Origin: a virus
Reading direction: 5' to 3' (one strand)
Length of the DNA stretch: 41,686 nucleotides
Virus record (IMG/VR): IMGVR_UViG_3300044678_001403
Coordinates: 1 to 41,686 of that record
Below the pieces are notes generated by a model, which was not told the origin of the DNA, ran no database searches, and worked only from the letters and a program-made list of their open reading frames with translations. The position numbers were made by a program, and so were the translations under genes. This document shows, in pieces, positions 6,467 through 41,686 of the stretch (the first letter of the stretch is position 1; each line of letters opens with the position of its first letter).

Positions 6467-6498
6467 TGATTCAAGATTCCCTTTCCTTCTGATACGCA

Positions 6499-6514
6499 AA
6501 AAATGCGCATTTTT
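6499..6514. promoter_or_regulatory. 16-bp perfect palindrome, candidate operator
   Basis: AAAAATGCGCATTTTT is fully self-complementary. It lies mid-way between the divergent small terminase gene and the plus-strand early block, the expected place for a dimeric repressor or activator site. Confidence 0.5.
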
Positions 6515-6534
6515 ATTGTTGCCACCCCTCCCCA

Positions 6535-6573
6535 CTTGCGCCAACCTTGCACCAAGCTTGCAAGACGCAAGCG
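6535..6573 (+). repeat. 11-nt direct repeats (iteron-like), array 1
   Basis: Three consecutive 11-base units start at 6535, 6546 and 6557: CTTGCGCCAAC, CTTGCACCAAG and CTTGCAAGACG. A related CAAGCGAAACT follows. The same TTGC(G/A)C core with about 11-base spacing recurs at 11391-11502. Helically phased repeats in the two divergent spacers suggest binding of one protein at both. Confidence 0.6.
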
Positions 6574-6600
6574 AAACTCAAACCAGCTAAACCCCACAAA

Positions 6601-6786
6601 ATGAATACCATCCTACTTATCGCAGCGATTCCATCGTCTTTCTTCGTCTTCATCGCCTTTCTTGAGCTGTTTGAGAAGATAACGCTCTCTTCTATCGGCC
6701 ACTGTCTCTTCACGCTTGGCATCGCCGCTTCCTTCTTCTGTGTGACCTTCGTCATCGCCACTGGTCTTTCCTTCTCCGTTCGTTAA
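6601..6786 (+). CDS. Small two-helix membrane protein
   Basis: 61 residues and not recognised. Two hydrophobic stretches (about 3-24 and 33-56) are split by a short polar turn (LFEKITLSS), so a two-pass inner-membrane protein is likely. The start is ATG 6601 after the A/C-rich leader GCTAAACCCCACAAA, as for its plus-strand neighbours. It is the first gene of the plus block that also encodes ArdA, so an early role at the host membrane is possible. That is inference from position only. Confidence 0.6.
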   Translation: MNTILLIAAIPSSFFVFIAFLELFEKITLSSIGHCLFTLGIAASFFCVTFVIATGLSFSVR

Positions 6787-6804
6787 CGCAACCCATCCAA
6801 ACCC

Positions 6805-6996
6805 ATGAAACTCAGCACCAAGCAACAGATCCAAACCATCGCATCCATCATGCGCACCATAGACCCCACAATCACCGCATTGCAGGCACTCAGCACCGCC
6901 CGTTACGTGTTAAATCACCGATTCGCAGGAGATTACACAAAGGCCCTTGAGCACGCTCACGATCCATATCTGGTCAACGGCATCATCTGCTGGTAA
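6805..6996 (+). CDS. Hypothetical small protein
   Basis: 63 residues and not recognised, soluble and mostly helical (MKLSTKQQIQTIASIMRTID at the start). ATG 6805 is preceded by CAACCCATCCAAACCC, an A/C-rich leader without a Shine-Dalgarno sequence. It lies 18 bases after the membrane-protein gene and is part of the same plus-strand run of tiny genes before ArdA. Confidence 0.6.
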   Translation: MKLSTKQQIQTIASIMRTIDPTITALQALSTARYVLNHRFAGDYTKALEHAHDPYLVNGIICW

Positions 6997-7028
6997 CACC
7001 CTAAACCAACCTAAACCAACCTAAACAA

Positions 7029-7184
7029 ATGAAAACCAACCACTTCATCCTCGCCATGAACCTCCTCACCATAGCTGACATCCTCGCCCTAGCGTTTTTA
7101 CGCCTCTCAACCGTTGAGGCATGCCTTGTCTACACCTTGATGATAACAACTTACGCGCTCACGCTCAAGGTTGCAATGCGCTAA
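7029..7184 (+). CDS. Tiny hydrophobic membrane protein
   Basis: 51 residues beginning MKTNHFILAMNLLTIADILA. Two hydrophobic segments (about 6-24 and 31-50) suggest a second two-pass membrane protein in this block. ATG 7029 follows a striking leader with repeats of CCTAAACCAA and only one base other than A, C or T. It ends at TAA 7184. No family is recognised. Similar size, leader style and topology to the product at 6601 suggest related roles. Confidence 0.6.
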   Translation: MKTNHFILAMNLLTIADILALAFLRLSTVEACLVYTLMITTYALTLKVAMR

Positions 7185-7217
7185 CACCCAACCCAAACAC
7201 AACAAACACAACACCTT

Positions 7218-7427
7218 ATGCAAACACTACACAACACGTTACACAACACGTCCATCCGCATCCGCTCCCAACTCACTTGGGAGCAGATAGTTGACGCTGC
7301 ATACCGCGCTGAGTCAGCTCGTCCACACAACCGCAACCGCTCACAACTCAACGCATTAGCGTTACACAAGCGCATCCGCCGCGCTTTGTGTGGCATGACG
7401 GATTGCAGCTGTGGCATAGTGCGATAA
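7218..7427 (+). CDS. Hypothetical small basic protein
   Basis: 69 residues with many Arg and His and a C-terminal cluster of three cysteines (CGMTDCSCGIV). ATG 7218 follows a leader of ACACAACAAACACAACACCTT. The family is not recognised. The Cys cluster could bind a metal. It lies directly upstream of ardA in the same direction. Confidence 0.55.
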   Translation: MQTLHNTLHNTSIRIRSQLTWEQIVDAAYRAESARPHNRNRSQLNALALHKRIRRALCGMTDCSCGIVR

Positions 7428-7474
7428 CCAACTCACCCCCAACAAACTACAAACCAAACCAAACCAAACCAAAA

Positions 7475-7996
7475 ATGAAAACGACAACAACCTCCCCCAA
7501 ACTCTATGTTGGCACTTACGCTAAATACGCAAGCGGATCAATCGCTGGCGCTTGGGTAGAGCTAGAAGGCCATGACAAAGAGAGCTTTTTGCTCGCATGC
7601 AGAGAGCTCCATTCTGATGAGTCCGACCCTGAGCTCATGTTTCAGGATTTCGAGGGATTCCCGCGTGAGTTTTATTCCGAAAGCTCTGTTAGTGAAGCAC
7701 TTTTCGAGTTTGCAAACTTAAGCGACGAGGACAAAGAGCTGGTTGAAGCCTATGCAGACGCTTTTTCGTTTGGCGTCGATCTTGAGGAATGCACCATTAA
7801 AAAAGCGCGAGAAGCCCTTGCTGGCCAAGCGGATACGGAAGCTGAGTTTGCGGAAGAGTACACCCTGGAAACCGGCTCTTTACCGCGTGACCTGCCGACA
7901 TGGTTGCAAGCGTGCATCGACTGGCAAGCCGTTTGGGACTCGGCACTTAGGTTTGACTTTGTCCGCTCGGGAGAGTTCTTTTTTTACAACGTCTAA
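7475..7996 (+). CDS. ardA: ArdA-type antirestriction protein (DNA mimic)
   Basis: 173 residues. ArdA proteins are acidic, DNA-shaped dimers that occupy type I restriction-modification enzymes and so protect incoming DNA. The N-terminus has the family signature (LYVGTYAKYASGSIAGAWVE). The protein is rich in Asp and Glu throughout, and the central and C-terminal segments (FANLSDEDKELVEAY, LPTWLQACIDW) fit the three-domain elongated fold, at the usual ArdA length of about 165-175. ATG 7475 is chosen because the reading frame upstream is just the A/C leader, ending in repeats of CCAAA. It would be made early from the plus block, before host enzymes cut the phage DNA. Confidence 0.9.
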   Translation: MKTTTTSPKLYVGTYAKYASGSIAGAWVELEGHDKESFLLACRELHSDESDPELMFQDFEGFPREFYSESSVSEALFEFANLSDEDKELVEAYADAFSFGVDLEECTIKKAREALAGQADTEAEFAEEYTLETGSLPRDLPTWLQACIDWQAVWDSALRFDFVRSGEFFFYNV

Positions 7997-8021
7997 GCAA
8001 ATAAACGCTAAAGGACTAAAC

Positions 8022-8216
8022 ATGCGCACATACCACGTTTACACCGCTGCAGCGTCCCCGGCCTATCTGGGGACAGTTGCCGCCCAATCCCTAGCGGATG
8101 CCCAATCCGCCGTTGAGCGAGCCCTCATCATCCCCTGCGTTGTCCGCGACACGCCACCCCCACCCCCAACCCTTGAACACCGCGTCGGGAGTGACGGGAG
8201 ACTGTACCGACACTGA
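8022..8216 (+). CDS. Hypothetical small protein downstream of ardA
   Basis: 64 residues beginning MRTYHVYTAAASPAYLGTVA, with a proline run (DTPPPPPTLE) near residue 47. The family is not recognised; the start resembles short phage proteins with one beta-alpha unit. ATG 8022 is 25 bases after ardA and has AAAGGA upstream, one of the few plausible Shine-Dalgarno sequences in this block. A strong terminator follows at 8240, closing the unit 6601-8216. Confidence 0.6.
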   Translation: MRTYHVYTAAASPAYLGTVAAQSLADAQSAVERALIIPCVVRDTPPPPPTLEHRVGSDGRLYRH

Positions 8217-8239
8217 CCCAACCCAACCCAACCCAACCC
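8216..8239 (+). repeat. Tandem ACCCA repeat before terminator
   Basis: About five copies of the pentamer ACCCA/CCCAA run from the stop of the preceding gene up to the terminator stem. It resembles the A/C leaders seen before start codons but is followed by no gene. Confidence 0.6.
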
Positions 8240-8273
8240 AAGCCGCGCTTCCTTCGGGAGGTGCGGCTTTTTT
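8240..8273 (+). terminator. Rho-independent terminator of the ardA unit
   Basis: AAGCCGC-GCTTCC and GGAGGT-GCGGCTT pair around a TTCG tetraloop and are followed by six T residues. This is a textbook strong intrinsic terminator for the plus-strand unit that ends at 8216. Confidence 0.9.
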
Positions 8274-8697
8274 CGTGCCGTTCCCCAACCTTTCCGATTC
8301 CACCCCTAAAAACCCCAAGAAGCCTCCCCTCTCCCCTTTCCGCTATCGCCACCTTCCCTGCTTCCTTCGACGCTTGCAAGACCCCTTTCTGTTCGTTTTA
8401 AGCGCATTCCCGAAACGCCACACGCTCCCAACTCCCACACACGCCCAAGCGCACCCACCCACACCCACCCACACCCACACCCAAGCGCGCATGACACACC
8501 CACGCATGACGCGCCCGCACGTAAGACCCCATTCCGATTTCCTGAGCTGCCCAAACTTTTTCACGAATTCCAACTTCTCCCCACGATTTCCAATCTGCCG
8601 CGTTTGATCCGGTTTTTCCGCTAAACCTTTTCGCCTCCCCAACCGATTTTCCCCTCAGTCAGTCAGTAAACCAACCAAACAAACCAAACCACACACC
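8274..8697. other. 424-base non-coding spacer, C-rich
   Basis: I see no gene here. The plus strand is strongly C-rich and G-poor, with a CACCCA-type low-complexity run (about 8440-8490), a 90-base element repeated at 9510-9599, and an A/C leader (8665-8697) for the next gene. Long frames on either strand in this stretch are low-complexity Pro/His/Thr or Gly/Trp runs and not convincing. Confidence 0.6.
8531..8620. repeat. 90-base diverged intergenic element, copy A
   Basis: This aligns without gaps to 9510-9599, with about 60 of 90 positions identical by my count. Both ends are exact: ATTCCGATTT at the left, and ATCCGGTTTTTCCG at the right. The core TCACGAA is also shared. The two copies bracket the gene at 8698-9186. 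Confidence 0.65.
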
Positions 8698-9186
8698 ATG
8701 GCCGGATACTCTGGATTCTCAAAATCGAACAACGCCGTCGCCGCCGAAGCAAGCGGACGCCACCCCGCAACCGCAGCCGCTCGCCTTTTAGGTGTCCCTG
8801 TTGCCTGGGTAAAACTGCAACCAACGCGCGAATGGCACCACACGTCGAGCTGGTACAACTCAACCGACTACTACGACGTTGAGCAACTCGCGGAGCACCT
8901 CGCCACCGAGGAAGGCCAAGAGCAACTCGCTCAGGTTAAAGCGGAGGCCGCCGCTCAAAAGCAAAAGCTGGAAACCGTGATCGGGGGCGCGATCGTGCTT
9001 TGGTTGGAATGGACCGGCACGCGCAACCACCCACGCGCAATCGAACGCCGCGCCGAAAACGCCACCGTCACCGACCGGGGAGGAAAGTTCGTCGAAATCA
9101 GCCTCCCCGACGGAACAACTTTCAAAAAGGGTAAGACAACCAACGGCTTCCGCGTGTTCAAGGACGGAAAAGAAATCCGCTTCTAA
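8698..9186 (+). CDS. Conserved-looking hypothetical protein
   Basis: 162 residues. The start (MAGYSGFSKSNNAVAAEASG) and the motif EWHHTSSWYNSTDYYD (about 45-60) resemble short phage and plasmid proteins of unknown function. The middle (about 62-90) is a charged helix and the C-terminal part looks like small beta strands (GTTFKKGKTTNGFRVFKDGK). ATG 8698 follows an A/C leader of about 30 bases with CCAAA repeats. It is a single-gene unit with its own terminator (9211), flanked on both sides by copies of a 90-base element. I cannot assign a function. Confidence 0.7.
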   Translation: MAGYSGFSKSNNAVAAEASGRHPATAAARLLGVPVAWVKLQPTREWHHTSSWYNSTDYYDVEQLAEHLATEEGQEQLAQVKAEAAAQKQKLETVIGGAIVLWLEWTGTRNHPRAIERRAENATVTDRGGKFVEISLPDGTTFKKGKTTNGFRVFKDGKEIRF

Positions 9187-9210
9187 CCCACCCCTCCCCC
9201 TCCCCCTTCC

Positions 9211-10613: not shown

Positions 10614-11066
10614 TCACCCCAACCAATCCGGCGCGGCCTGCTCCTGCACCGGTGCGTCAACGTAAACGCTCACGCTCACGCCCTCCTCACCGGCTGCGCA
10701 CCACCGCTTCCTCACCGTCAAGTCCGCCACCCGGCTATCATCCCCAACCCACAAACCGCCATCCACCAGCGCGTCCATCACCAGCTTCGCCAAGTTGTCC
10801 GCATCCGGCTTGTGCGTGTGCGGCTGCCCAAACCGCCCCTCCTCACCGGTCGAAAAGCTGAACGTCAACTCCATCGAAATCGCTTCACGCAGCCCAAGAG
10901 ACTCCGATGTCTTCCCCGCCCGCTGCAAAACATGGCCCGCGCACGCACGCAAAGCCGCCTTCCACGCGTTGGACTTCGCGTCGAGGGTGGACACCGCTCT
11001 GCCGTTAACAAAACGCGGCCTTGGCTGTGGACGAGGTGTACCGGCAACAAAGAAAGTGAGAGTCAT
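10614..11066 (-). CDS. rusA: RusA-family Holliday junction resolvase
   Basis: 150 residues. RusA is a dimeric endonuclease that cuts four-way DNA junctions and clears branched DNA before packaging. Family marks are the N-terminal GTPRPQPRPRF (about 9-19) and the metal-binding acids in KPDADNLAKLVMDAL (D88, D90) and LWVGDDSRV (D109, D110). It starts at ATG 11066, next to the divergent control region, and leads a three-gene minus unit. The C-terminus APDWLG resembles the tails of the DUF669 protein (KPAWLK) and the Cas4-like nuclease (KPFWLK). Confidence 0.9.
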   Translation of the reverse strand: MTLTFFVAGTPRPQPRPRFVNGRAVSTLDAKSNAWKAALRACAGHVLQRAGKTSESLGLREAISMELTFSFSTGEEGRFGQPHTHKPDADNLAKLVMDALVDGGLWVGDDSRVADLTVRKRWCAAGEEGVSVSVYVDAPVQEQAAPDWLG

Positions 11067-11080
11067 AAAAGTCTATCGGG

Positions 11081-11092
11081 ATTGTATACAAT
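11081..11092. promoter_or_regulatory. 12-bp palindrome upstream of rusA
   Basis: ATTGTATACAAT is perfectly self-complementary. It sits 15 bases before the rusA start and contains a TATACAAT -10-like hexamer on the minus strand. No convincing -35 element is visible, so it may be an operator overlapping a weak or activated promoter. Confidence 0.5.
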
Positions 11093-11189
11093 GCGAGCGG
11101 CGCGGCCCTTCAGAACGGTCAGCAAACACAACAAAAAGAAAACAGGTGGAAATTTTCGTCGATATAGAGGAAGGCAGCCTGCGAAGCAG

Positions 11190-11245
11190 TATCCCCTCTC
11201 CTCTCAGCTAGCAACGCGGTAAGCTGAGAGAAGAGAGAGGGGATA
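11190..11245. other. Long hairpin (20-bp stem) in the divergent spacer
   Basis: TATCCCCTCTC plus CTCTCAGCT pair perfectly with AGCTGAGAG plus GAGAGGGGATA. A 4-base bulge (AAGA) sits on the right arm, and the loop is 12 bases. There is no U tract. Between divergent genes it is unlikely to be a terminator; a structured RNA or a cruciform at a replication origin is possible. Confidence 0.7.
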
Positions 11246-11272
11246 GTAGGAAGAGCGTAAGCGATGAGTACG

Positions 11273-11284
11273 CTACTCTCTATA
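11273..11284. promoter_or_regulatory. 12-mer shared with the late-operon control region
   Basis: CTACTCTCTATA is identical to 6450-6461. Both copies lie in divergent spacers that also carry the 11-nt repeat array. The minus-strand form TATAGAGAGTAG could be part of a promoter or factor site. Confidence 0.5.
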
Positions 11285-11390
11285 TAAGGGCTCATGTCCT
11301 CAAAGGGGATTTTTCTTTTGCAACTCATTTGATTTTCAGGCGTTTACGACGCGTCCTTTTTCGCAACCCATTTTTGGGCACTTACAAAAG

Positions 11391-11502
11391 TTGGCGCAAA
11401 CCATTGCACAAACCTTGCGCTTTTGCAAAAAATACTCTGTAAAAAAGCTTGCGCAAAGTTGGCGAATCTTGCACAAACAGGTTATCGCAAGTTTGCGCAA
11501 AC
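11391..11502 (+). repeat. Iteron-like TTGC(G/A)CAAA array 2
   Basis: Related units start at 11391 (TTGGCGCAAA), 11404 (TTGCACAAA), 11415 (TTGCGC), 11449 (TTGCGCAAA), 11469 (TTGCACAAA) and 11492 (TTTGCGCAAAC). The last is inside the palindrome GTTTGCGCAAAC (11491-11502), and TTTTGCAAAA (11421-11430) is another palindrome. The first three are spaced 11-13 bases apart, as in the array at 6535. Confidence 0.6.
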
Positions 11503-11530
11503 CAAAAATACCACTGATTATCAACGACTT

Positions 11531-11875
11531 ATGATGACCGCCGAATACTACCGTGATTACCGTGTAAAACGCCGTGAAAAAGCCGCCCAAAAGGCGGCTG
11601 AAACGGTCGATATCAAGGCCGATTTGAAGGCTGCGCTGGCAACGTGTGCAGCCCTCCAAAAGACCATTGCCGCTCGTGATGCGACTATTCTTCATCTTGA
11701 GAAGCTAGTTTCTCAGCTCTCGGCAGCCCAATCCGAATCTCTCTCGCGAATTGAGAGCGGAATGCAGGTACTGCTGGCTCGCCATGCTCTTCAGCCAGCT
11801 CCTCCCGCACCGGTTGATCCTCCTGCTCCCGTCCACTCTGGGCCGATGCCGCCATGGATGGCTGCGAGAAGGTAG
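11531..11875 (+). CDS. Hypothetical coiled-coil protein, antisense to the primase-helicase 3' end
   Basis: 114 residues from ATG 11531 (or 113 from ATG 11534). It begins MMTAEYYRDYRVKRREKAAQ, a basic start seen in small phage proteins. A long helix follows (about 25-80), then a Pro-rich tail (APPAPVDPPAPV). It reads out of the iteron-bearing spacer, and its last 191 bases lie opposite the end of the primase-helicase gene. Both frames look protein-like there, so the overlap may be real. Position next to the candidate origin hints at a replication or regulatory role, but no family is recognised. Confidence 0.55.
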   Translation: MMTAEYYRDYRVKRREKAAQKAAETVDIKADLKAALATCAALQKTIAARDATILHLEKLVSQLSAAQSESLSRIESGMQVLLARHALQPAPPAPVDPPAPVHSGPMPPWMAARR

Positions 11876-14213
11876 ACCCCCAGGCTCCCGCTGCCGACCT
11901 GCCAACGCAGGTACCGGTCTCAGGATCGAACATATACTCCGACCAATCCGGCAGGGACGAATACGCCCCTGCTTGGATGGCGGCGCCGGTCTCATCCGAA
12001 GCCAAAAGACCGCCCGGCACATCAAGGTAGCTCTTGGCCTTGCTGCCCTTAACCGCGCAAGAGACGATAAGCTCCTTCTGGAGCCCCTCCTCGATGAGGT
12101 GCCCAAACTCGCTTGCGCCAACTGCGCGCAACACCGGTGGAAGTTCCGAGCGGCGCTTGTAAAGCCCGTTGGCTGCGTTCTTGTTCCCCAGCGTGTACGG
12201 ATGCAGGTTTCCAGCCGCCTCCCGCACCGCCAGAACAAGCCATGCAAGCCTCTCAGTCACGTTGATGGCGCTGTACACGTCCAGCTTCGTAACGTCCTTG
12301 AGCAGGCCGTTGCCGTCTCGAAGCAGTGTGCGCTCTCCGCGCATGAGCCCACTGATGTTGGCCTTGAGCACTCCGAACCGGTAACAAGAGTCCACCCGCG
12401 GCGCCAGAGACATCCCCTTCATGCGGCGCTCGTAATCGGTCGCGTGCCAGAACCCCAGATTGATTCGGAAGTACGATGGGATGGCGCTGCTCCCGCGGAT
12501 GGAGTTCTTCATGTCCTTGAGCGTTCGGATCGGCTCGTTGCCGGGCTTTCGGATGTGGTGCGTAATCATGAGAGCTGCCTTGAGCTCACCGCACACGCGC
12601 CCTGCTTCGCGCATCATCTCTGCAACCGCCAGAGCGTTGTTCTCATCTCCGTGCGAGACCGCGTTGAAGGTGTCGATTGCCACAAGGCAGAGGTCTGGGA
12701 TGCGCTTAAGCTCAGTGATGATGGCCTCCCACTTCGGCGAGGCTATCGGTGAGCCGCTCTTGGGATCGCGCTCCACAAGAGGGAACGCCCCACCAACCGC
12801 TGAGAGCGGTATAACCACAAGCCTCCGTCCTGCCTTCGTGATTAGTCCTCCATGGTCAATCTCAAGGATCCGCCGGTGCATCTCGGTCTGGCTGTCCTCG
12901 CATAGCAGGAGCACCGCGGTTCCACCGTTGGTGATGCGCTGCCCGCACCAGTCCAAGTCCCCGGCGTACTCTGGTTGGGCTGCGACCTTGAGAGCCAAGT
13001 CAGCGATGAGACCGGTCTTGCCTGCGCCGCCCTCGGCGATGAAGAGATGCGGCTCGCCTTTGACGACCAGCGCCTCAACCAAGTAAGTGTGCTCGGGTTT
13101 CGGCCACTTAATCCACCGGTGCGCCTGCCATGCCTCAAACCATGACTCGGCCGGCGTGGACGCCGGAAGAGCGCGGGGCGCCGCTTGCACAGCCGCCGGT
13201 GCTGCATCAACCTTCCCGTTGCGGCGCGTGTCTGCGTTGACAAGCCCCTGCCACTCCGATGCGAAGCGCGCGTCCGTCCATGCTGGGTGCATCCGCTGAA
13301 GCATCCACCCGCGGGTTTGCTCACGGGCTTCCTCAAGAGTTATCATCCCGCGCCGCACAAGCCCCAGGTTCGCCCCTGCAACGCTGTTAAACGCGTCCCA
13401 GCGTGTTTCCCCGTTGGCAGCGCCCTCGTACACGTCCCGCTGATGGGCTGGCTCCTTCGGGAGCGCGTTGGTGCTATTGGCCCCAAAGAGCCCCGCCTCC
13501 GGCGCAATAGAGCCCTGTGGCAATAGCGAGCGAAGACGCTCGGTGAACGCGGCAGCGTTCTGCACGGTCTCGCTCCTCCACTCAATGGCTGTCTGCACCG
13601 GTGTGCCCTTCTTCGCGTGTACGCTGCCCGCCAGCCGGATTGGTTGGTGAGCTCGTCCATACGGGTTTGAGTCAACCCCAAGGCCCATCGCTGAGTCCCC
13701 GCCGCTTACCTTGGCAAGCGCGTCCCGCATACGGATCGCCTGCTCGGCTGGAATCTCTCCATCGAGCTGGTACCAGACGTGCCTCTTTGGAGTTCCCTCC
13801 TCGGTTGTTCCACCGCTCAGAACCACCAGCGAAGGCTCGCCAAGCTGCTCGGTGATGGCCCGCATCTTCTCGTCGGTATTTCCGTTGTCGAGGTCTGCCA
13901 CCAGCGAGCGCATCCGTGCGACGTTTGCGCTTGTGGCGCGACGGTCGCTCAAGATGCCTGGGACAACGAAGGTCGCCACATTGTACTGCGCCCACCGCTC
14001 GGTAGCCGACAACACAGGTGTGAACCCTTCCGTGGCGGGTTCCACGAAGATGTCCTCGCGAAAGACTCCCTCTTGATCAGTGCCCTTTTCTCCAATCCCG
14101 CGAACGCATATGAACTCGTTCTCCTTCCAATCCCTATCGCCGAAAATGAGGCGAAGGTGCTCTTGGGCTTGGCGTAGGTCGACCAAGCCGCGACGATCTG
14201 TCAGTGGCTGCAT
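11685..14213 (-). CDS. Primase-helicase (AEP-like N-terminus, RepA-type ATPase)
   Basis: 842 residues. The N-terminal third looks like an archaeo-eukaryotic-type primase or RepB-like domain: a D-x-D metal pair in LVADLDNG (D107, D109), the LVVLSGGTTEEGTPKRHVWY strand pair, and AHQPIRLAGSVHAKKG. The middle is a RecA-fold hexameric helicase of the RepA/AAA_25 type, with Walker A in EGGAGKTG (about 390-397) and Walker B in LCLVAIDTFN (about 510). A basic C-terminal region follows. It would unwind and prime phage DNA, with a host polymerase, since none is encoded here. The last 63 residues lie opposite the plus-strand gene at 11531. ATG 14213 follows leader CTACCCCAAACAAA. Confidence 0.85.
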   Translation of the reverse strand: MQPLTDRRGLVDLRQAQEHLRLIFGDRDWKENEFICVRGIGEKGTDQEGVFREDIFVEPATEGFTPVLSATERWAQYNVATFVVPGILSDRRATSANVARMRSLVADLDNGNTDEKMRAITEQLGEPSLVVLSGGTTEEGTPKRHVWYQLDGEIPAEQAIRMRDALAKVSGGDSAMGLGVDSNPYGRAHQPIRLAGSVHAKKGTPVQTAIEWRSETVQNAAAFTERLRSLLPQGSIAPEAGLFGANSTNALPKEPAHQRDVYEGAANGETRWDAFNSVAGANLGLVRRGMITLEEAREQTRGWMLQRMHPAWTDARFASEWQGLVNADTRRNGKVDAAPAAVQAAPRALPASTPAESWFEAWQAHRWIKWPKPEHTYLVEALVVKGEPHLFIAEGGAGKTGLIADLALKVAAQPEYAGDLDWCGQRITNGGTAVLLLCEDSQTEMHRRILEIDHGGLITKAGRRLVVIPLSAVGGAFPLVERDPKSGSPIASPKWEAIITELKRIPDLCLVAIDTFNAVSHGDENNALAVAEMMREAGRVCGELKAALMITHHIRKPGNEPIRTLKDMKNSIRGSSAIPSYFRINLGFWHATDYERRMKGMSLAPRVDSCYRFGVLKANISGLMRGERTLLRDGNGLLKDVTKLDVYSAINVTERLAWLVLAVREAAGNLHPYTLGNKNAANGLYKRRSELPPVLRAVGASEFGHLIEEGLQKELIVSCAVKGSKAKSYLDVPGGLLASDETGAAIQAGAYSSLPDWSEYMFDPETGTCVGRSAAGAWGSTFSQPSMAASAQSGREQEDQPVREELAEEHGEPAVPAFRSQFAREIRIGLPRAEKLASQDEE

Positions 14214-14231: not shown

Positions 14232-15032
14232 TTACTTAAGCCAGAACGGCTTGGTTGCTTTGGGGCTTACCTGCACGGGAACATCCTCCCAGCAAGTGGA
14301 CTTGAACGAGCAGAACTTGCACCGAAAGTCGGTGCGGTCGTTCCCGAGGCGCGGGAGTTCCTTGGGTGACTGAGCGTCAATAACGCGCACTGCGCGGTCT
14401 GACGCTTCTTGAGCGGCCAATGCATCGTACGGGACAAGCTCAACGAGCACCTCACCGGTGTCGCGGTTGAGAGCCGTGAACATCCCGCCAGACGGGATGT
14501 CGAGGTACGCACAGTAAATCTGCATCTGGGCGTAGTACACCGGCTTTGAAACTTTGACGCCCTTGTTCTTGGTGTCGTTCCACGACCTATCGTTGAGCGC
14601 CTTGTTTTCCCAAAGGAGCGGGTACTCAACGCCGGTGATGATGGGGCCGCCGGCGACAATGCCGTCGATGTGTCCGCCGAGGCGTCCGTCCGCAGCTCGG
14701 AAGCCGAACTGTTTTCCGTCGCTCTTCTCGGTTAGCAAGTCGAAGCCTGCCTCGCGAATGTAATCAGCCATGCGGGCTTCTCCGTCATGCCCCATGTCGA
14801 AGATGCGAAGAACCTCCGGCGAGAACCCTGAGCCTTCGTCCTCCGGCGTGTGCTCGTACTCATACCGCAGGCGCCGCTCGCACGCCTCGCCCCACCTAGA
14901 CGCCCCGAGGTAGTCCCGCTTCTCTTGGCTTGCCTGCCGCTTCAGAATGGCATCATCCAGCACCGAAGCGATTGCTGCCTGAGCTGGCTCGTTGCCGGTC
15001 TGCTTCTTTGTCTCTGCTTTGAAGATGCTCAT
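14232..15032 (-). CDS. Cas4-like PD-(D/E)XK nuclease with Fe-S-type cysteines
   Basis: 266 residues. The core reads GHIDGI (H121, D123), WENKA (E142, K144) and YYAQMQIYCAYLDI (Q169), the catalytic order of PD-(D/E)XK exonucleases of the Cas4/RecB group. One cysteine before the core (C51 in GEACERR) and three after it (C238, C241, C247 in CKFCSFKSTC) match the four-cysteine 4Fe-4S arrangement of Cas4 and AddB. It probably resects DNA ends for recombination with the Sak4 protein. ATG 15032 overlaps the preceding stop (ATGA). The C-terminus TKPFWLK resembles the tails of RusA and the DUF669 protein. Confidence 0.85.
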   Translation of the reverse strand: MSIFKAETKKQTGNEPAQAAIASVLDDAILKRQASQEKRDYLGASRWGEACERRLRYEYEHTPEDEGSGFSPEVLRIFDMGHDGEARMADYIREAGFDLLTEKSDGKQFGFRAADGRLGGHIDGIVAGGPIITGVEYPLLWENKALNDRSWNDTKNKGVKVSKPVYYAQMQIYCAYLDIPSGGMFTALNRDTGEVLVELVPYDALAAQEASDRAVRVIDAQSPKELPRLGNDRTDFRCKFCSFKSTCWEDVPVQVSPKATKPFWLK

Positions 15033-20418: not shown

Positions 20419-20994
20419 CTACTTCAACCAAGCAGGTTTCTTGCGAGCTGTCGCAGCTGCTGGAGCCGCTGCTTTCGCAGCTGGCACCGGTGCTGGTGCT
20501 GGTGCGCTGCCTTCGGTTGCCTGCGCCCACAGCTTGTGCCCGTTGCTGGCTGGATTCGGTGAGCCCCAGTCCGCAATGCTGTTGCGGTCTGCGCGTCCGT
20601 CCTTGCCCTTGTCGATGCCGACCTTGATGACGACTTCAGCGCCGTTGAGCGCCTCGATGATTTGGTTGAAATCACCGCTGTTGAACTGCTCGTACGAGGC
20701 AGGGTCTTCGTAGTTGAAGACGCCCTTGCTCTCAAGGATGCGAGTGATGGCACCGATGCCCATCTGACGCCACACCTCGCTGTTGTTCTCATCGAAGGGA
20801 TTGCAAACCATCCCGAACACGCGCCGGTTGTTGTACTGACCCCCTTGGATGGCGAGCTCGATGGATAGGTAGTCACCACCGGTTGACTGACTGCTCTTGC
20901 GCTCCTTCACCACAAGGATGGCCTTGGCGACCGTTCCTTTTGGGATGAGTTCCATCTCTGTTGACCCGACGTTTGTTGACTGTGAATTGAACAT
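20419..20994 (-). CDS. DUF669-type ssDNA-binding-like protein
   Basis: 191 residues. The N-terminal 130 have the DUF669 pattern, with a strand region around LSIELAIQGGQYNNRRVFGM (about 44-63) expected of an OB-like fold. A low-complexity Ala/Pro linker follows (about 160-182), then a short tail, KKPAWLK. This build (DNA-binding body, flexible linker, conserved tip) parallels bacterial SSB, although the tip differs. It lies directly below the Sak4 gene, the common pairing of a single-strand annealing or recombination module. ATG 20994 follows an A-rich leader (ATAAAAATACAATC). Confidence 0.8.
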   Translation of the reverse strand: MFNSQSTNVGSTEMELIPKGTVAKAILVVKERKSSQSTGGDYLSIELAIQGGQYNNRRVFGMVCNPFDENNSEVWRQMGIGAITRILESKGVFNYEDPASYEQFNSGDFNQIIEALNGAEVVIKVGIDKGKDGRADRNSIADWGSPNPASNGHKLWAQATEGSAPAPAPVPAAKAAAPAAATARKKPAWLK

Positions 20995-40223: not shown

Positions 40224-40248
40224 AAGTCTTTGGTTTCAGTAAAGTTAA

Positions 40249-40274
40249 GGGGATGGCCCCGAAGGGCCACCCCC
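40249..40274 (-). terminator. Hairpin with UUCG loop after coat gene (right copy)
   Basis: Same 11-bp stem and TTCG loop as at 5-30. Here the downstream sequence is visible: TTAACTTTACTG, again with no strong U tract, then the DUF6496-type gene. Attenuation rather than full termination would let late transcription continue. Confidence 0.55.
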
Positions 40275-40286
40275 CGTTAGCGGGAA

Positions 40287-41600
40287 CTATACCTGATTGA
40301 ACAGGATGATTCCACTCATTTCGGGTTGCTTGTTCACAACCCCGTAGAACGTATCCACACGATACTTGGTCGTGAGGGTGTTCTGGTCGAAACGCTTCGT
40401 CATAACGAGTTCCAACCCTTGGTCGGTCGAGCCGCGCATGACCGCAACGCCAGCGTTGTCGGGCAGCGAGTAGCGACCGGGGAGGATTTCAATCGCGTCC
40501 TTGTGCCAGAAGCAGTTCACAGGAGCTGCTGCCGTGTTCAGGAGCGTGATTGACGCGTTGGTTGCCTTCGTGTTCGCAACGCAGTTTTGGTTCTGCGCGG
40601 AAGCGGCGTTAGCAACTTGGTTCGTGATGAGCGGCGGGCTGATGACGATTGCTTGGTTACCAGCAGCAGGCGCACTCGCCGAGATGACACGGAAGGTCTT
40701 AAGCTGACCGGTGTCGCCTTTGGTGATGTGGTGCACTGCGTTGATGCCAGCGATCGTGAACGCGTCGCCTGCGGCCAAAGCCCCAGCGGAAACTGCCACA
40801 GTCAAGGACTGGAAGCGGTTGTCCACGTTGAGACGCTCTGCCGTTGTTGGCGAGGTCGAGATGGCTTTGGGGATGTAGTAGTTCGCGCCAGCGTCCGTCG
40901 TGTTGATGGTCGCTGTAGCAAGCCCAGCACCCAAACGAACCGCGTAGTCCAGCTTGTAGATGTCGAAGGACGCTACCATGCCAACATACGCACGCTCATA
41001 CGCCTTGTCGGACTTCTGGTTCCCGAAGGAGCGCGAAGCCTTGGCGAGGTCGTTGGCAAGACCGTTGTAGTCCCGCGTGTTGAGCGCGAGGTAGCGGTCG
41101 CCATCCATGATGCCTTGCTCGTTGAAGATGGCCTCGCACTGGGCGACGTCATCGAAACCGCTCGAAGCACCTGCCGCGCTCGTGCGCTTAACCACCAGCG
41201 TGCCCTGATTGGCCGCGATGTTCAGCACCGACACGTTGATGTCAGAAGCGAGTTTCTGCTTGGCGGAGTTGCCAAGGCGTTGCTCTTGCAGAGCGTCACG
41301 AAGCTCTTGAGCGTTGAGCTCGAAAGCGACCGTGCGCGTCTGGTTGATGCTGGCGGGAACTGCCAGCTGGGTGTAGGAGGCGTAGCCGCCAACGCTGGTG
41401 ATGTCCGTCCCAACCCCTGCATTCGACAACGAGGTCGCAATGTAGGGCTGTGGGCGCCAGATGACGTTGTTGGTGCGCTCCATCATCGTCTGATCCGTGT
41501 TGTAGATCGAGACGTTACGTGACAGCACAAGAGCGTCATTGAACCCCTCAAGGAGGTTCTCAAACGCTACGCGCTCTTCTTTATTGAACGAGTTAGCCAT
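40287..41600 (-). CDS. Major coat (capsid) protein, P22 gp5-like, allele B
   Basis: 437 residues, same start, stop and length as the copy at 43-1356. I count 12 amino-acid differences, including N/T after GTDI, S/G and S/L in the VRL-AG- region, P/L in DTGQ-K, and a cluster at SPP-I/L and S/T. There is no frameshift, and most DNA changes are silent, which indicates purifying selection in both. This allele is the one linked in this sequence to the downstream DUF6496 and gp4-like genes. Confidence 0.9.
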   Translation of the reverse strand: MANSFNKEERVAFENLLEGFNDALVLSRNVSIYNTDQTMMERTNNVIWRPQPYIATSLSNAGVGTDITSVGGYASYTQLAVPASINQTRTVAFELNAQELRDALQEQRLGNSAKQKLASDINVSVLNIAANQGTLVVKRTSAAGASSGFDDVAQCEAIFNEQGIMDGDRYLALNTRDYNGLANDLAKASRSFGNQKSDKAYERAYVGMVASFDIYKLDYAVRLGAGLATATINTTDAGANYYIPKAISTSPTTAERLNVDNRFQSLTVAVSAGALAAGDAFTIAGINAVHHITKGDTGQLKTFRVISASAPAAGNQAIVISPPLITNQVANAASAQNQNCVANTKATNASITLLNTAAAPVNCFWHKDAIEILPGRYSLPDNAGVAVMRGSTDQGLELVMTKRFDQNTLTTKYRVDTFYGVVNKQPEMSGIILFNQV

Positions 41601-41603
41601 AGG

Positions 41604-41686
41604 TTACTTTTTTGACTGCAATTGACGTTTGTAGGCGATTACTTGCGTGTAGTCACCGGTGCGCTCAGCCTTTGCGCGTAGGTTGT
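41604..41686 (-). CDS. Scaffolding protein, 3' fragment cut by window end
   Basis: Last 27 codons and stop of the scaffold gene, identical to 1360-1442. It is partial because the sequence ends; on the circular map it is the same gene as 1360-2232. Confidence 0.85.
   Translation of the reverse strand, partial: NLRAKAERTGDYTQVIAYKRQLQSKK

Follow-up and report, generated by a model that had tools for sequence, protein, structure and literature searches.

A candidate phage replication origin with exchangeable repeats and a possible basic coiled-coil binder

Introduction

Initiation at plasmid RSF1010 relies on RepC, which binds iterons, on the RepA helicase and on RepB', which primes at ssi hairpins (PMC4234260). 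An experimentally mapped origin with a stem-loop lies 3' of the primase-helicase gene of pRN1, and an origin has been proposed at the same primase-helicase 3' position in Bordetella phage BIP-1 (PMC4234260). Viral origin binders of the bZIP type are represented by Zta of EBV and K-bZIP of KSHV, the latter having been modelled on a cluster of C/EBP motifs at oriLyt (PMC7412551). For most uncultured phages, origins and initiators are not known.

Here we describe two repeat clusters in a viral contig of 41,686 bases (IMGVR_UViG_3300044678_001403), the whole of which is called the window below. The larger cluster lies at the 3' end of a primase-helicase gene and may be a replication origin. Like oriV of RSF1010 (IncQ), this locus combines a RepB'-like primase fold and a RepA-like helicase with an A+T-rich stretch and hairpins beside repeats, and we propose that its repeat cluster is also bound by a separate small protein. 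Unlike RSF1010, the phage has primase and helicase in one protein, its repeats are short palindromic 8-9-mers with irregular spacing rather than long direct repeats in tandem, a basic coiled coil takes the place of RepC as proposed binder, and the hairpins are only candidate ssi elements. With pRN1 and BIP-1 the phage shares an element directly 3' of the primase-helicase gene and a large stem-loop, but its helicase is RepA/DnaB-like and not SF3, and it has a repeat cluster, which pRN1 lacks. Lambda O origins likewise carry group-specific iterons, which lie inside the O gene. The proposed binder would resemble Zta and K-bZIP in its basic helix followed by a coiled coil and in a double role at promoters and origin; however, no sequence relation was detected and the host virus here is a dsDNA phage of bacteria, making this a likeness of working and not of descent.

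Results and discussion

Gene order of the phage

The phage appears to be an uncultured podovirus, its terminase sharing 62% identity with the EBPR podovirus 1 terminase. The contig ends repeat inexactly over about 1.44 kb and represent either an inexact overlap or strain variants joined in assembly; the two terminal copies of the head protein are slightly different, with N or T in ..GTDI[N/T]SVGG... Since the ends repeat each other and the head gene is present in both, the genome is about 40.2 kb long and circular or permuted. Nearly all genes point leftward, the exceptions being a rightward block behind 6601 (small ORFs and ArdA) and gene 11531. The genes needed for the argument are the following:

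1-1442 and 40245-41686: near-identical terminal repeats, each with the major head protein gene (437 aa)
6601-6786, plus strand: first rightward ORF, behind a 5' hairpin
10614-11066, minus strand: RusA-like resolvase (phrog_140, 1e-24), C-terminal tail APDWLG
11531-11875, plus strand: basic region plus coiled-coil protein of 114 aa (alternative start 11534), tail MPPWMAARR, candidate iteron binder
11685-14213, minus strand: primase-helicase with an AEP/RepB'-like primase fold and a RepA-like AAA_25 helicase (AAA_25, 5.6e-31)
14232-15032, minus strand: Cas4-like exonuclease (phrog_1990, 4e-68), tail KPFWLK
20419-20994, minus strand: SSB-like protein (phrog_2300, 1e-18, with weak SSB matches), tail KPAWLK

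The original prediction had placed one repeat array in both divergent control regions, a fair description of the intervals 6436/6601 (TerS to the left, first rightward ORF to the right) and 11066/11531 (RusA to the left, coiled-coil gene to the right). In the rightward genes at 6600-9200, third codon positions are unusually C-rich, with tracts such as CCCACCCACACCC, contrary to the usual coding-strand bias. Relatives were gathered by the primase gene and comprise 64 loci.

The N-terminal domain of the primase-helicase, as predicted by AlphaFold2 (pLDDT about 85-90), matches the PrimPol 6zp9 (S-2L) at E 2e-8 and RepB' 3h20/3h25 at E 2e-6 and 5e-6, matches of fold only, at 14% identity; one of the matched RepB' entries includes initiator DNA. 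The primase domain carries conserved DLD and KRHVWY motifs, and a sequence search of the PDB with the primase gave no match. The helicase is probably of the RepA type, and a Wolbachia phage relative found by tblastn bears the annotation 'similar to RepA of plasmid RSF1010'. At its 3' end, the primase-helicase gene overlaps the convergent coiled-coil gene over 190 nt (11685-11875), and the primase extension in this overlap exists only in relatives that have the coiled-coil gene.

A cluster of short sites beside the primase-helicase gene

The interval between rusA and the coiled-coil gene holds the larger array, two hairpins and a conserved core (the locus L027, primase 73%, recurs below, as do the relatives at about 50%):

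11191-11244, minus strand: long stem-loop (ATCCCCTCT..CTCTCAG / CTGAGAG..AGAGGGGAT), candidate ssi-like element or RNA leader
11253-11275, minus strand: second hairpin, with a conserved AGCGTAAGCG motif
11331-11356, no strand: left boundary element TTTTCA..TTACGACGCGTCC, with a related element in L027 and in the ~50% relatives
11391-11399, minus strand: candidate iteron 1, TTGCGCCAA
11404-11411, plus strand: candidate iteron 2, TTGCACAA
11415-11428, no strand: degenerate sites TTGCGC and TTTTGCAA, left of the core
11431-11444, no strand: conserved core AATACTCTGTAAAA; each control region, whatever the group, has one or two copies of ACTCTG(T/G)
11449-11456, plus strand: candidate iteron 3, the palindrome TTGCGCAA
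11469-11476, plus strand: candidate iteron 4, TTGCACAA
11493-11500, plus strand: candidate iteron 5, the palindrome TTGCGCAA
11518-11533, no strand: right boundary TTATCAACGACTTATG, which runs into the start codon

The TTGC(G/A)CAAA core had been said to recur at least five times at 11391-11502, and five exact TTGCRC(C)AA sites are indeed found there, at 11391 (minus strand), 11404, 11449, 11469 and 11493, against a mean of 0.18 and a maximum of 3 in shuffled sequence. The motif is not equally dense elsewhere: the 120-bp span at 11391 holds six sites with at most one mismatch, and the next best span of the genome holds three. The steps of about 11 bases that had been proposed for this region did not hold up, the spacings between site centres being 12.5, 45, 20 and 24 bp. 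The palindrome TTGCGCAA equals the C/EBP palindrome. No DnaA box (TTWTNCACA) was found in the whole 41,686-nt window. Two other readings of this stretch were discarded: a sigma-54 promoter at 11391 (TTGGCGC..TTGCAC), whose GG-GC gap is 11 or 8 and not 10, and an antisense ORF at 11336-11695, which is open in relatives but has its base changes at its first codon position and an unconserved peptide.

The stem-loop at 11191-11244 folds with z -3.6 as RNA and z -4.35 as DNA and is better conserved than the iterons in close relatives. In the ~50% relatives the AGCGTAAGCG motif occupies the loop of a hairpin whose stem has another sequence, and a conserved CGCTTACGC element by the iterons is also present in this group despite those other stems. 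Strong minus-strand folding spans 11150-11300, nearly unchanged in close relatives, and may belong to the leader of the leftward RusA transcript or to origin hairpins; in Rfam the only match was a sub-threshold one to tmRNA at 11193-11360 (minus strand), taken as chance. In all close relatives GC3 skew shifts across the array, from about 0.33-0.49 in RusA to about 0 in the primase; to the left of the array, genes that run rightward have the same third-position strand bias, independent of gene direction. The shift weighs less as support for an origin because a second change in third-codon skew is seen at about 1.3 kb and because transcription or module boundaries could also account for it.

Exchange of repeats around a fixed core

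Both arrays are kept in the close relatives that keep the genes, despite diverged array DNA. Loci at 84-97% identity carry many copies of TTGCGC/GCGCAA ahead of the coiled-coil gene; in some close clades the whole array unit is doubled, and in one clade (L012, L022) the sites are fewer and weaker. In L027 the repeat is GTCGCG, in six copies, and its coiled-coil protein has the basic region SDYHRKWRQKR as against AEYYREWRAKKR in the window protein, so that repeat and basic region may have changed together in this one lineage. In the ~50% relatives the coiled-coil gene is absent and an unrelated repeat, GAGGACAC, occupies the same place between the primase 3' end and RusA. The layout is nevertheless kept in this group, namely a boundary (TTTTCAACAACTTA..CCCGTCCTC), repeats, the core TTTACTCTG and again repeats, and in two nearly complete ~50% genomes the GAGGACAC repeats form essentially one cluster per genome. 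The window (at 11295) and L027 each retain one TGTCCTC copy near the left end, which suggests that GAGGACAC is the older repeat. Dense TTGCGC and GTCGCG repeats are restricted to loci with the coiled-coil gene, where they lie directly ahead of its start codon.

Repeats that change as a set while the core stays are what would be expected of initiator-specific iterons, and thus of an iteron origin. An origin is further supported by location: the array invariably lies at the 3' end of the primase-helicase gene, as do the origin of pRN1 and the proposed one of BIP-1. Related phages that keep one origin frame and exchange the repeats would provide a natural experiment on the coevolution of initiators and iterons.

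A basic coiled-coil protein with a tail shared by replication proteins

Gene 11531 is real, as base changes concentrate at third codon positions of the plus strand. Its product is predicted to form one helix (residues 2-86, pLDDT above 95 over most of it), with basic residues at 7-16, hydrophobic heptads after these and a disordered tail, and the basic region is continuous with the coiled-coil helix, as in bZIP proteins. Homologues were found in 25 loci, all of them close relatives or L027, and only alongside TTGCGC or GTCGCG repeats. The product had no family match in Pfam, PHROGs or NCBIfam and is thus not a RepC homologue by these searches; the bZIP profile of Pfam gave no match at E up to 0.1, and the PDB held no relative by sequence below E 0.1 nor by fold. 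No relative was found in named phages, and none of 73 pattern matches in bacterial genomes was confirmed. Among the binders that the original prediction had proposed, this protein gained support, and the HTH-like and zinc-finger proteins gained none.

The product ends in P-x-W-L/M (PPWM or PPWL), and so do the SSB-like protein, the Cas4-like exonuclease and RusA. Such an end is present in 4 of 56 genes, and in no other of the 56, against 0.025 expected from internal positions, but the pattern was chosen after it had been sighted, so that the computed chance probability is too small and conservation of the tail is the stronger argument. SSB-like homologues as distant as 37% identity still carry this tail, as do many homologues of the exonuclease and of RusA, though one group of exonucleases has another end. 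It is probable, on the evidence of these shared ends, that the tail is a docking motif for a common partner. Since it is common to replication and recombination proteins, it would tie the 11531 protein to replication and recombination and not to transcription alone. The window encodes an AAA_24 protein, a family that includes Sak4. A precedent comes from phage HK620, whose SSB recruits the recombinase Sak4 through its tail (PMC5928155). The shared tail points to a docking hub of phage replication.

The small array at the rightward promoter

The second control region contains these elements:

6493-6509, no strand: dyad TACGCAAAAAATGCGCA upstream of the rightward promoter
6519-6547, plus strand: putative rightward early promoter, TTGCCA (6519-6524), 17 bp, degenerate -10 CAACCT (6542-6547)
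6536-6555, plus strand: two tandem sites, TTGCGCCAA (6536-6544) and TTGCACCAA (6547-6555), 11 bp apart
6556-6572, plus strand: 5' mRNA hairpin GCTTGC-AAGAC-GCAAGC, 17 nt

Three 11-nt units had been read at 6535. CTTGCGCCAAC, CTTGCACCAAG and CTTGCAAGACG do follow one another there at 11-bp steps, but the third is no repeat and instead forms the left (5') arm of the hairpin. Between units 1 and 2, 9 of 10 bases agree; at period 11, just three genome positions attain this level. TRF reports 2.5 copies of period 11 at 6535-6562 with a modest score. Two exact TTGCRC(C)AA sites within 6501-6600 were matched in 2 of 500 dinucleotide shuffles. The proposed spacing of one helical turn is borne out for the pair 6536/6547 only and not for the array at 11391-11500. 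The 10-mer TTGCGCCAAC (6536-6545) recurs exactly, as reverse complement, at 11390-11399, and also at three coding places.

The pair is conserved as TTGC[AG]CCAANNTTGCACCA in 12 close relatives and absent from L110 and the ~50% relatives; close relatives keep TTGC[AG]CCAA, two free bases and TTGCACCA. A simple scan found no consensus promoter in either control region (6536 or 11391). In close relatives TTGCCA, TTGACG or TTGCAA always stands 17 bp before CAAC(C/A)T or CAAAGT, and with two conserved sites placed behind these hexamers the pair looks like sites laid across a promoter -10 and start. The hairpin would begin at about the expected transcription start. It is paired in 97.9% of cells, with two pairs changed on both sides and a covariation score of 0.381 against 0.136 when shuffled, and its stem varies among relatives yet stays paired (GCTTGC/GCAAGC, GTTGGC/GCCAAC, GTTCGC/GCGAAC; further stems are GTCC/GGAC, GTTC/GAAC and TACGGC/GCCGTA in L019, L022 and L110). 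The dyad at 6493-6509 has a related dyad in close relatives and is kept as TACGCAAAAAAAGCGCA in the ~50% relatives. An 11-bp repeat in L039, GTGCGTAG, was considered as an equivalent of the 6535 array; it is absent in the neighbour L105 and was taken as chance.

An L027-type virus has at this place a plain TTTACT-17-GATATT without small array, read from a second contig with an exactly matching TerS end because the promoter is missing from the L027 contig. Since L027 and the ~50% relatives lack the small array, its role would be confined to one clade. The small array occurs only where the large array has TTGCGC sites, and the 10-mer is common to both, which makes one regulator shared by 6536 and 11391 plausible.

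A possible mechanism and its alternatives

The original prediction had left open whether the sites were a master switch or replication iterons. For 11391-11502 the latter is supported by the neighbouring primase-helicase gene and its predicted fold, the hairpins, the swapped repeats and the strand asymmetry, all of which are features read from sequence. We lean, with little more than even confidence, towards the view that 11391-11500 comprises origin iterons bound by the 11531 protein, which would also act at the 6536 promoter. A small dimeric coiled-coil protein from 11531-11875 would bind the TTGCRC(C)AA sites through its basic helix, and its P-x-W-L/M tail would join it to the same partner as the SSB-like protein, the exonuclease and RusA. 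The RSF1010-like primase-helicase would act at the conserved TACTCTG core and prime at the hairpins at 11191-11275. Array binding may also set expression of the coiled-coil gene and the leftward RusA operon. As the 6536/6547 pair overlaps the rightward early promoter, the same protein may repress or modulate this promoter once it has accumulated, the sign of regulation being guessed from position. Against an origin speak the shortness and irregular spacing of the sites, where typical iteron plasmids have tandem direct repeats, and the lack of a DnaA box in the window. Only tentatively would we go further and propose that a bZIP-like phage protein reads the origin iterons (with TTGCGCAA as a C/EBP-like site), docks via its tail and displaced the GAGGACAC repeat when the gene was gained, the core remaining fixed. 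If this is true, a virus of bacteria would have a bZIP-like origin binder comparable to those of herpesviruses, probably by convergence.

It is conceivable, though in our view doubtful, that the array is a transcriptional operator only, that is, a bidirectional promoter of the coiled-coil gene and the RusA operon, autoregulated by the coiled-coil protein, which would also regulate the promoter at 6536, with no origin involved. Both clusters are intergenic between oppositely oriented genes, the 6536 pair falls at the expected place of a -10 and start site, and ACAGAGTA could be part of a leftward promoter. In bacteria, RptR sets a precedent as a dimer that recognizes short palindromes within one groove, although RptR is no long coiled coil (PMC12255303). 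However, the layout of the array and its core persist, with other repeats, in relatives that lack the rightward gene, an RSF1010-like primase fold and hairpins adjoin the array, the candidate regulator bears the tail of replication proteins, and neither region shows a promoter consensus.

An origin whose repeats are bound by the primase-helicase or by another phage protein, with the coiled-coil protein as an accessory, seems unlikely to us. The repeat cluster exists in the ~50% relatives, in which no basic coiled-coil gene was found, so that another protein must bind their repeats and could be the binder here too. A winged-helix-like segment of the primase-helicase is possible near residues 645-735, modelled with low to medium confidence, and ORF904 of pRN1 uses such a domain. 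Yet the restriction of dense TTGCGC or GTCGCG repeats to genomes with the coiled-coil gene, directly before its start codon, argues for that gene's product, as does the lone TGTCCTC copy in the window and L027, as if an older repeat had been replaced on gene gain. Moreover, L027 has other repeats yet a primase C-terminal domain (residues 650-750) that is still 84-92% alike.

That the repeats are chance or compositional and without function is highly improbable: TTGCRCAA is not clearly enriched genome-wide (10 against 5.75 expected) and the tandem-repeat score at 6535 is modest, but clustering at 11391-11500 lies above all shuffles and both clusters are conserved across diverged relatives.

Just upstream of rusA, a perfect 12-bp palindrome at 11081-11092, ATTGTATACAAT, is conserved in the close clades and looks like an operator for another regulator.
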